A stretch of 64,000 bases of DNA from assembly GCF_000016165.1 (NCBI RefSeq), contig NC_009253.1, forward strand, positions 1,770,332 to 1,834,331. Direction: 5' to 3'. The translations under genes and the position numbers were made by a program. Source of the stretch: Desulforamulus reducens MI-1 (GTDB lineage: Bacteria > Bacillota > Desulfotomaculia > Desulfotomaculales > Desulfotomaculaceae). Positions within the stretch are counted from its first letter, which is position 1, and every line of letters starts with the position of its first letter. The notes under the pieces are model-generated. The model saw nothing but the letters and a program-made list of their open reading frames with translations, had not been told where the DNA came from and ran no database searches. Shown piece by piece: positions 26,185-28,255 of this stretch.

Positions 26185-26214
26185 TTGACGTTTTAGACTA
26201 TGTTGTATTAAAAT
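26185..26214 (+). promoter_or_regulatory. Promoter of the lysine-riboswitch transcript
   Basis: TTGACG at 26185-26190 and TAAAAT at 26209-26214, separated by 18 bp; each differs from consensus at one position. It lies about 40 bases before the riboswitch aptamer, a fitting distance. Confidence 0.65.
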
Positions 26215-26253
26215 TTAAACAGAATTGAATATAATGCCTCATCTTAGTGAAAG

Positions 26254-26440
26254 GTGAGGTAGAGGTTGCGGGCTATTAAGATTACTTGAGGAGAAACTGG
26301 GAGAGTTGATGACCCTTAAGGAAAGGAATACCTGCCGAAGCAATTTGATTTTCTCGGTTAAATTGCTGGGGTTGCATTAAATAAATGCAGCACTGTCACA
26401 GACAATATTCCTTCATGTTATCTGTGGAGCACTATCTTAC
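26254..26440 (+). ncRNA. Lysine riboswitch (L box)
   Basis: The sequence follows the L-box core in order: GGTAGAGGTTGCG, TTAAGATTA, GGAGAAACTGG, GGAAAGGAATACCTGCCGAAGC, a GCAATTTG/AAATTGC hairpin with CTGGGGTTGCATTAAATAAATGC, then CACTGTCACAG and CTGTGGAGCACTATC. P1 can form between GTGAGGTAG (26254-26262) and CTATCTTAC (26432-26440) with G-U pairs. These blocks match the B. subtilis lysC leader closely. Lysine binding stabilises P1 and favours the downstream terminator, so the transporter gene behind it should be off when lysine is plentiful. Confidence 0.95.
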
Positions 26441-26477
26441 TATTAAGAAGGAAGGGGGCATTGAGCTATTTTAAAAG

Positions 26478-26507
26478 CAACTAGTGTCAATTTCTAGTTG
26501 TTTTTTT
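26478..26507 (+). terminator. Riboswitch-controlled terminator
   Basis: The stem CAACTAG/CTAGTTG (26478-26484 and 26494-26500) with a nine-base loop is followed by seven Ts (26501-26507). It lies 38 bases after the aptamer and 37 before the coding region, as expected for a transcription-attenuating expression platform. Confidence 0.9.
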
Positions 26508-26543
26508 GTTTAGATAAAGGAGACTTACAAAGGAGTTATAATT

Positions 26544-28106
26544 ATGGATTATCAATGGTTGTCGCTTATACCGCCAGTTCTGGCAATTGGATTGGCCTTA
26601 TTTTCAAAAAAGGTAATTCCTTCTCTAGCCATCGGTATTATATCTGGTGCCTTCATTCTTAGTAATTACCAGCCTGTGGCGACGATAACAAAAGCCCTAG
26701 GCATGATGACCGAAAAGGTAACGGATAGTTGGAATTTATGTATTTTAGGCTTTCTTGTCATCTTGGGAATATTAGTACATTTGGTAACAGTAGCCGGCGG
26801 TTCTGCGGCCTATGGAAAGTGGGCAGCTACCAAAATTAAAACCAGATCCGGTGCTAAATTATCTACCTTCTTTTTAGGTATTCTCATATTTATTGATGAT
26901 TACTTTAACAGCTTAACAGTGGGTACCGTAATGAGACCCGTAACTGATAAATATAACATTTCCAGGGCAAAGTTGGCATATGTTTTGGATGCCACAGCAG
27001 CTCCCATCTGCATTATTGCCCCTGTATCCAGTTGGGTAGCCACCATTATGTCTACCATGGGAGATAAATTTAAAGCCACGGGACTTGAGATGGAACCATT
27101 TTCAGCATTTCTAATGACAATTCCCTTGAACCTTTACGCCATATTGACCATAATAATGGTGATTTTGGTTAGTCTATATAAATTGGATTTTGGTCCTATG
27201 CTTACCCATGAGGAAAGGGCTGTGAATGAAGGGGACCTAGGTGTTTTAACGGTTGTAGCCAATGAAGAAGAAAAAGTTAGCGATAAGGGCAAAGTTATGG
27301 ATTTGGTGGTGCCCATTGCAGGGTTGGTAGTATTTGTTCTAACCGCTATGGTGTATACAGGTGGCTACTTTGACGGTGGTGTGTCTGTTATCGGTGCCAT
27401 TAAAAATACCGATGCAGCAAAATCTCTGCTATATGGTGGCAGTGCAGCTTTGGTCTTAAGTTTACTAATGTTTCTCCCCAGGGGAGTTGTTACGGTTGGG
27501 CAATTACCTAAGGCAGTATACGGCGGCTTTATGTCCATGCTACCTGCTAATTTAATTTTGATTTTTGCCTGGACAATTGGTGGTATTATTGGCGAGTTAG
27601 GTACTGGTGTTTATTTGGCAAACCAATTGGGTGATAAATTACCCTTCTGGGTCTATCCGTCCCTTGCTTTTATACTTTCTGGTTTTATGGCCTTTGCGAC
27701 GGGGACTTCTTGGGGTACCTTTGCTATTATGATCCCCATTGCCATTGACTTGGCTCTGATTGTAGATCCCCAATTATTAAGTATATTAATGGCATCTGTT
27801 TTAGCTGGCGCAGTTTATGGAGACCACTGCTCACCTATCTCCGATACGACAATTTTATCTTCCACTGGTGCGGGCTGCAAACATATAGACCATGTTAGCA
27901 CCCAGTTGCCCTATGCCAGTTTGGTTGGAAGCATATGTTTTCTTGGCTATATTTTCTCGGCTGTTATGACCAAAATTACTGATAGTGTACTCTTGAATGC
28001 GACATTGACTCTTATTATTTGCTCCGGCTTGCTTGTGATTTCTTTAAATGTTTTACACCGTTTAAGCACTGCCAGAGTAGAGAAAAGTAAAGAAATAACA
28101 GTATAG
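26544..28106 (+). CDS. NhaC-family antiporter, probable lysine transporter
   Basis: 520 residues with about 12 hydrophobic segments. The conserved FIDDYFNSLTVGTVMRPVTD and GAVYGDHCSPISDTTILSS segments identify the NhaC Na+/H+ antiporter family. The lysine riboswitch directly upstream indicates that lysine is the true substrate. Riboswitch-linked NhaC-type proteins have been proposed as lysine transporters (called LysW) on the same reasoning. Import is more likely than export because an L box normally shuts genes off when lysine is abundant. SD AAAGGAG is at 26529-26535. It is a single-gene unit. Confidence 0.88.
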   Translation: MDYQWLSLIPPVLAIGLALFSKKVIPSLAIGIISGAFILSNYQPVATITKALGMMTEKVTDSWNLCILGFLVILGILVHLVTVAGGSAAYGKWAATKIKTRSGAKLSTFFLGILIFIDDYFNSLTVGTVMRPVTDKYNISRAKLAYVLDATAAPICIIAPVSSWVATIMSTMGDKFKATGLEMEPFSAFLMTIPLNLYAILTIIMVILVSLYKLDFGPMLTHEERAVNEGDLGVLTVVANEEEKVSDKGKVMDLVVPIAGLVVFVLTAMVYTGGYFDGGVSVIGAIKNTDAAKSLLYGGSAALVLSLLMFLPRGVVTVGQLPKAVYGGFMSMLPANLILIFAWTIGGIIGELGTGVYLANQLGDKLPFWVYPSLAFILSGFMAFATGTSWGTFAIMIPIAIDLALIVDPQLLSILMASVLAGAVYGDHCSPISDTTILSSTGAGCKHIDHVSTQLPYASLVGSICFLGYIFSAVMTKITDSVLLNATLTLIICSGLLVISLNVLHRLSTARVEKSKEITV

Positions 28107-28213: not shown

Positions 28214-28255
28214 AACGCCGGCAAAACCCATGGGGATTTTGCCGGCGTTTTTAAT
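28214..28255 (+). terminator. Strong bidirectional terminator
   Basis: A long stem from AACGCCGGCAAAACCC to GGGATTTTGCCGGCGTT, imperfect near the loop, followed by TTTTAAT. It lies between the convergent transporter and penicillin-binding protein genes. On the minus strand it is followed by TTCTTTAG, so it probably serves both. Confidence 0.88.

Follow-up and report, generated by a model that had tools for sequence, protein, structure and literature searches.

Lysine riboswitches set directly before genes of the NhaC type are already in print. The gene so placed carries the name lysW; elsewhere, LysW denotes a carrier protein that acts in lysine synthesis and is unrelated. The use of lysW for an NhaC-superfamily gene behind lysine riboswitches is credited to Rodionov et al. 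2003, and the gene is found in Firmicutes, Gammaproteobacteria, and Betaproteobacteria (PMC5584792). A 2024 review describes the same arrangement in C. difficile and gives lysine transport and pH control as the options and leaves the function open (PMC11477304). Na+/H+ exchangers exist within the NhaC family, which counts against certainty on lysine: NhaC of B. firmus is an Na+/H+ antiporter, and YheL of B. subtilis is reported as one (PMC9408914). The NhaC-type protein SAUSA300_0846 of S. aureus was shown to take up an amino acid, histidine, and is proposed to be under a protein regulator; we set it beside the protein studied here by description (PMC10817146). Tyrosine T-boxes precede other NhaC genes, which a T-box study assigns to tyrosine (PMC2494555).

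Competition between a hairpin P0 and the aptamer closing helix P1 is described for the SAM-VI riboswitch, in which the P0 helix present in the apo state has nucleotides in common with P1 and comes apart when the ligand allows P1 to form (PMC10122661). A covariation study from 2026, on aptamer together with expression platform, discusses in the passages compared post-aptamer sequence alone, and the word "upstream" is absent from its text (PMC13273304). Among the titles and abstract openings that we searched, none names a P0 of the lysine riboswitch. We know of no P0 in the primary L-box papers, and the hairpin described below is apparently new for the lysine riboswitch, with the reservation that those primary papers lie outside our comparison.

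A lysine riboswitch before an NhaC-type gene

The window, a stretch of 64,000 nt from the genome of Desulforamulus reducens MI-1, carries on its plus strand, in this order, a lysine aptamer, a terminator with seven T residues, and the gene for a 520-residue PF03553 transporter:

26252–26442, plus strand: lysine riboswitch aptamer, RF00168 (122.3 bits, E = 3.3e-32)
26253–26262 with 26432–26441, plus strand: aptamer closing helix P1, pairs taken from the leader fold
26473–26507, plus strand: intrinsic terminator, from sequence and folds, a 12-pair hairpin (26473–26484 with 26494–26505) with a loop of 9 and a T-run at 26501–26507
26544–28106, plus strand: NhaC-type transporter gene of the LysW group, 520 aa (PF03553, 211.5 bits)

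The aptamer match spans positions 1–182 of the 182 in the RF00168 model, for which the gathering score is 30, and 200 dinucleotide-shuffled versions of the leader all folded less stably than the leader itself (z = −3.04). A terminator scan restricted to loops of 3–8 did not list the hairpin at 26473–26507, the loop of which is 9. AAGGAG stands 8 nt ahead of the transporter ATG. An earlier note on this DNA had read a lysine riboswitch, a terminator, and a transporter gene in succession, and the full-length RF00168 match, the terminator hairpin, and the PF03553 ORF bear this out; the start that it gave, 26254, is 2 nt past the 5′ end of the aptamer match, and it overlooked hairpin P0 at 26236–26260. 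Because the lysW pairing is in print, the main point of that note is not new.

In having a complete aptamer, a transcription terminator, and a downstream gene assigned to lysine transport by its regulation, the locus resembles other L boxes (RF00168); it differs in that P0 and the possible pairing of its arm with a linker lie almost wholly beyond the model. As in LysW generally, an NhaC-family (PF03553) membrane protein is encoded directly behind the lysine riboswitch, here and in four further genomes of the genus, and we found nothing different in kind. Two other elements were observed in the window: a terminator-like inverted repeat of 16 pairs (28214–28249) between the transporter gene and a convergent penicillin-binding protein gene, and a PyrR binding site (RF00515, 63507–63601) scoring 54.2 bits, barely over the threshold of 54.

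The single-contig genome (3,608,104 bases) contains two RF00168 sites, of which the window aptamer is one. The second (L003 4442–6882, equal to C1 2442441–2444881, minus strand), which also passes the shuffle screen for P0 described below, is followed by genes whose sequences read as the binding protein, permease, and ATPase of an ABC amino-acid importer; control of lysX–lysY is described where lysW is absent (PMC5584792). The lysA gene of the genome (488.8 bits) sits elsewhere, and no lysine riboswitch was found beside it. In the class sample, 19 of 31 lysine riboswitches precede an ORF that reads, by eye, as lysA.

The class sample includes eight genomes of this genus; five encode the transporter (E up to 1e-20), and in all five the aptamer lies just upstream. 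Three genomes of another family encode a 49–52% identical protein with no adjoining aptamer. The best 80 of at least 580 confirmed matches were taken from named genomes, and the sample therefore consists of close relatives; among these 80, a same-strand lysine aptamer was found upstream in 28 (in one, L095, with a predicted ORF in between) and was not found in the examined stretch for 52. On a tree of 95 proteins, made by a quick method and with several long branches, presence of the aptamer is clustered (at least 12 changes, where shuffling gives a mean near 28), and the aptamer comes or goes many times, eight changes being forced by well supported branches. Among the neighbors of riboswitch-free relatives (ten proteins, six loci), no lysine gene was detected above the cut-off, and three were without any match.

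The gene does carry the Pfam name by which the earlier note expected it to be annotated as an Na+/H+ antiporter. That this corrects a common misannotation was overstated, since lysW is already treated as known, yet the protein scores only 35.3 bits with the NhaC equivalog TIGR00931, far below the NCBI cut-off of 370. All its NCBIfam matches fell below their cut-offs; Tet(35) (NF000013) matches residues 155–497 with 260 bits, but that model has 369 positions and its cut-off of 750 is unreached. With the same model, a LysW-type protein of Vibrio renipiscarius that has an upstream lysine riboswitch (L120 3001–4563) scores 678.7 bits over residues 155–519 of 521, and Tet(35), to which this tetracycline-efflux model belongs, may be a shortened LysW.

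The predicted structure of the transporter (pLDDT 92.7) matched over most of the chain its closest folds, MleN, NaS1, NaDC3, and Pho90. MleN model 9a59, an integrative model with no solved map, gave a Z of 23.6 over 408 residues, followed by NaS1 (23.4) and NaDC3 (23.1), and ArsB gave 18.1. The elevator fold of MleN, INDY/NaDC, and ArsB is presumably the one grouped as the IT superfamily. A PDB sequence search with the transporter returned no chain at E up to 1. When residues were compared over segments 114–127, 146–165, 338–355, 382–395, and 424–445 of the window protein, D118, D119, N122, D149, S162, S163, S430, S433, D434, and T436 were identical in all 55 members, and positions 341 and 389 were skewed between aptamer-bearing and aptamer-free relatives. 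That the riboswitch points to lysine is fairly drawn for this putative transporter, and lysine import is plausibly the most likely reading for the LysW-type protein.

Hairpin P0 and its conservation

Upstream of the aptamer, two further features were identified:

26185–26214, plus strand: promoter-like site TTGACG-18-TAAAAT, with 10 of 12 consensus matches
26236–26260, plus strand: upstream hairpin P0, 26236–26245 paired with 26251–26260, loop AGTGA

The 3′ arm of P0 is the 5′ strand of aptamer helix P1, so that P0 and P1 are mutually exclusive. Only this 3′ arm overlaps the edge of the RF00168 model, the rest of the hairpin falling outside it. The four close leaders of the genus that we compared, whose genes are 77–100% identical, have the common stem GCCTCATCTT / (A/G)AGGTG(A/G)GGT, with loops differing in length and sequence.

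The −10 element of the promoter-like site ends 21 nt before the 5′ arm of P0 and 22 nt before its CCTCA. A promoter-like site with at least 9 of 12 matches precedes 86 of the 91 leaders with a recognizable arm, compared with 35 of 91 stretches after single-base shuffling, and the distance from the end of the −10 to the arm is 17–30 nt in 74 of the 86. Since most of the 91 leaders carry such a site ∼22 nt ahead of the arm, P0 should be the first hairpin to be made. A second promoter candidate (26208–26235), overlapping P0, was set aside because the site at 26185–26214 keeps the spacing seen in relatives.

Loci were screened for P0 by an ungapped-helix search of the 45 nt upstream against 200 dinucleotide shuffles, with p ≤ 0.05 as a pass; this superseded an earlier screen that had given 29 of 59 at p ≤ 0.05. 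The screen was passed by 24 of 31 class loci, by 47 of 89 phylum loci (a count lowered by some loci lying out of register) representing 30 of the 53 sampled families of the phylum, and by three of the 28 riboswitches that precede other NhaC genes, all three from Bacilli. No pass was obtained for 42 of the 89 phylum loci, for 7 of the 31 class loci, G015 of the same genus among them, and for 25 of the 28 riboswitches ahead of other NhaC genes, including all five gammaproteobacterial loci; two contig-cut and misplaced loci (L133 and L138) were scored negative, and three loci without an AGAGG-like motif were taken at the default place. The locus in G015 (L043/L007) encodes a more distant NhaC protein, ∼40% identical, with a lysine riboswitch directly upstream and no P0 passing the screen. 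In the lysC leader of E. coli K-12 (L222 4019–4034, minus strand), a hairpin CCTGCGC-TA-GCGCAGG shares about four bases with the aptamer match at its 5′ boundary.

For comparison of P0 through sequence change, 121 5′ ends (118 distinct) of the 148 loci were aligned, three being skipped. Of these, 117 were chosen regardless of P0, and four Bacilli, the only ones of the 28 NhaC loci included, were chosen after being flagged in the earlier screen. A CCTCA-like arm stands in register in 89 of the 121 rows. Over the ten pairs of P0, 84.6% of cells pair, against 45–47% in the slid control, and leaving out the four chosen Bacilli gives 84.5% against 45–48%. The covariation score of 0.245 exceeds both the slid (0.08–0.11) and the shuffled value (0.175; 0 of 500). 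Counts of double change do not stand out: 9 pairs changed on both sides, compared with 5–10 when slid and reached by 30 of 500 shuffles, 53 cells changed on both sides, compared with 7–51, and 29 further pair types, compared with 16–29. Since these counts are unremarkable and the slid control favors a structure read off the sequences themselves, the argument for P0 is carried by the share of cells that pair, by the covariation score, and by a permutation test.

In that test, carried out on the 71 class and phylum loci with a recognizable arm, the P0 arm of a locus was fitted better by the locus's own P1 5′ strand than by those of other loci (0 of 5,000 permutations), and the same was found for 20 loci with unusual arms (0 of 5,000). 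Measured alike, the signal was stronger for P0 (z = −6.5) than for P1 (z = −2.6). Folding ensembles of the P0 region together with the aptamer were computed for parsable loci (parsing failed for 1 class, 12 phylum, and 10 other loci). Among the parsed loci with a P0 passing the screen, 23 of 24 from the class and 38 of 39 from the phylum favor pairing of the P1 5′ strand with the upstream arm; the one exception in the class is L009, and L002 has low values for both pairings. The pairing of P0 is conserved through sequence change over 118 distinct sequences.

Possible linker pairing and predicted folding of the growing transcript

Downstream of P1, the leader contains a linker with complementarity to the 5′ arm of P0 and, overlapping both this linker and the 5′ arm of the terminator, a predicted antiterminator:

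26449–26459, plus strand: G-rich linker after P1, 26455–26459 with 26236–26240 and 26449–26452 with 26242–26245
26450–26495, plus strand: predicted antiterminator, 26457–26463 with 26482–26488, extended by 26450–26454 with 26491–26495

The antiterminator, one strand of which (26450–26463) is shared in large part with the linker, is the minimum-energy fold of the leader cut at 26496 and is a single-sequence prediction. Over the 71 class and phylum loci, the mean energy of arm–linker pairing was better for a locus's own linker than for permuted (0 of 2,000) or shuffled linkers (0 of 200), and for 60 of the 71 the start of the best duplex falls in the first 20 nt out of 60; there was no signal at 31–60 nt (773 of 2,000). 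In a shuffle test taken locus by locus, among the 74 of 148 loci that have a recognizable arm and a parsable P1 (19 were unparsed and the rest armless), p = 0.05 was reached in just 16, made up of 3 of 26 class, 13 of 45 phylum, and 0 of 3 other loci, and the window locus alone gave p = 0.075. With the unusual arms alone the signal was weak (286 of 5,000 and 301 of 5,000). The P0 5′ arm may pair with the purine-rich linker after P1, on weaker evidence than that for P0.

Growing-transcript ensembles were calculated for the four genus leaders. Once the P1 5′ strand has been transcribed, the probability of P0 is 1.0 in all four. With the aptamer complete and without ligand, P0 stands at 0.99, 0.97, 1.0, and 0.15, the last in L039, and when P1 is given a bonus of 4.3 kcal/mol, our estimate of what lysine binding contributes, its probability becomes 0.87, 0.96, 0.35, and 1.0. 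When the linker has been made, P1 together with arm–linker pairing wins without ligand in all four leaders (P1 0.90–1.0), and it still wins before the 3′ arm of the terminator in three of them; in L039, at that point, P0 is at 0.90 without the bonus and P1 at 0.98 with it. In the finished leader the terminator has a probability of 1.0 in all four, with or without the bonus, so that equilibrium folding of the finished leader gives no lysine dependence. The terminator is present and its coupling to P1 is predicted by the folding model. Because the completed leader favors the OFF fold in all four cases, even ligand-free, the decision would have to be kinetic, taken once the aptamer is complete and before the linker and antiterminator are.

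The aptamer, the terminator, and the conserved P0 that shares a strand with P1 are established by computation, and the arm–linker complementarity is supported more weakly. In the mechanism that we propose, P0 would be the first hairpin of the transcript and would hold the 5′ strand of P1; for that reason, without lysine, P1 would stay open, the linker would form the antiterminator, and the gene would be read, P0 thereby keeping it ON. Bound lysine would stabilize P1 and displace P0, and the freed P0 arm would pair with the linker and block the antiterminator, allowing the terminator to form and transcription to stop. An uptake gene would in this way be turned off under plentiful lysine. Our reading of the locus, for which we see the balance as even, is that a lysine-responsive kinetic strand-exchange OFF switch in the leader controls a LysW-type gene, whose product most likely takes up lysine together with a coupling ion. 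A wider proposal, to which we give slightly less than an even chance, is that much of the phylum's lysine riboswitch has been catalogued without its first switching part: P0 would compete with P1 while its other arm shuttles to the linker, with a single short strand belonging to the ON fold as well as to the OFF fold, a three-way kinetic strand exchange serving biosynthesis and transport genes alike.

Alternative readings and implications

The leader could also be an ordinary two-state lysine riboswitch, decided by P1 against the antiterminator, with P0 as a harmless 5′ hairpin or a mere brake on P1. This is the usual design, and it would accord with the failure to detect P0 in 42 of 89 phylum loci and with an arm–linker signal reached by only 16 of 74 loci. 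Against it stand the pairing of P0, which persists through sequence change and occurs in 30 of 53 families, and a permutation signal for P0 that exceeds that of P1. GCACUA on the 3′ side of P1 has a possible partner in UAGUGU of the window's terminator region, but by eye this match is not conserved in every one of the four genus leaders, and the P1 3′ strand was rejected as antiterminator strand on that ground; overall we hold the two-state design to be somewhat doubtful. Very improbable, in our judgment, is that the inverted repeat at 26236–26260 forms no RNA hairpin and is a DNA operator for a regulator. Its place ∼22 nt past the −10 would suit an operator, but at one position U–G is the commonest pair (56 of 105 cells, compared with 20 U–A and 11 C–G), not a pair that a DNA palindrome would favor, and the 3′ arm is bound to its role in P1 and the loops vary in length.

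As to the protein, export of lysine, or carriage of another substrate such as ornithine or arginine with lysine merely as the signal, appears unlikely. A weak match to ArcD, the arginine/ornithine antiporter, is present in 53 of the 55 members (best E = 2.2e-13), but the ArcD cut-off of 650 bits is unapproached by the window protein (24.9) or by 10 members scored singly (≤48 bits); the lack of a detected lysine aptamer in 52 of the best 80 of at least 580 relatives would fit such a role, and the OFF layout fits import rather than export. A role as a genuine Na+/H+ antiporter that serves pH control, with expression when lysine, and with it lysine decarboxylation, is low, would be in keeping with the B. 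firmus and B. subtilis proteins (PMC9408914) and with the alternative stated in the C. difficile review (PMC11477304). We think this quite improbable, given the 35 of 370 bits with the NhaC equivalog, best fold matches that are solute carriers in the predicted structure, the uptake of histidine by an NhaC-type protein (PMC10817146), and the assignment of NhaC genes to tyrosine (PMC2494555).

The lysine riboswitch serves as a model RNA and has been proposed as an antibacterial target, and constructs that start at the aptamer would cut P0 off. SAM-VI is an unrelated RNA, with SAM as its ligand and control of ribosome binding rather than termination, and we claim no kinship; the P0/P1 competition proposed here would be a natural case beside it. 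If true, a conserved 5′ competitor would set the amount of lysine that the riboswitch needs.
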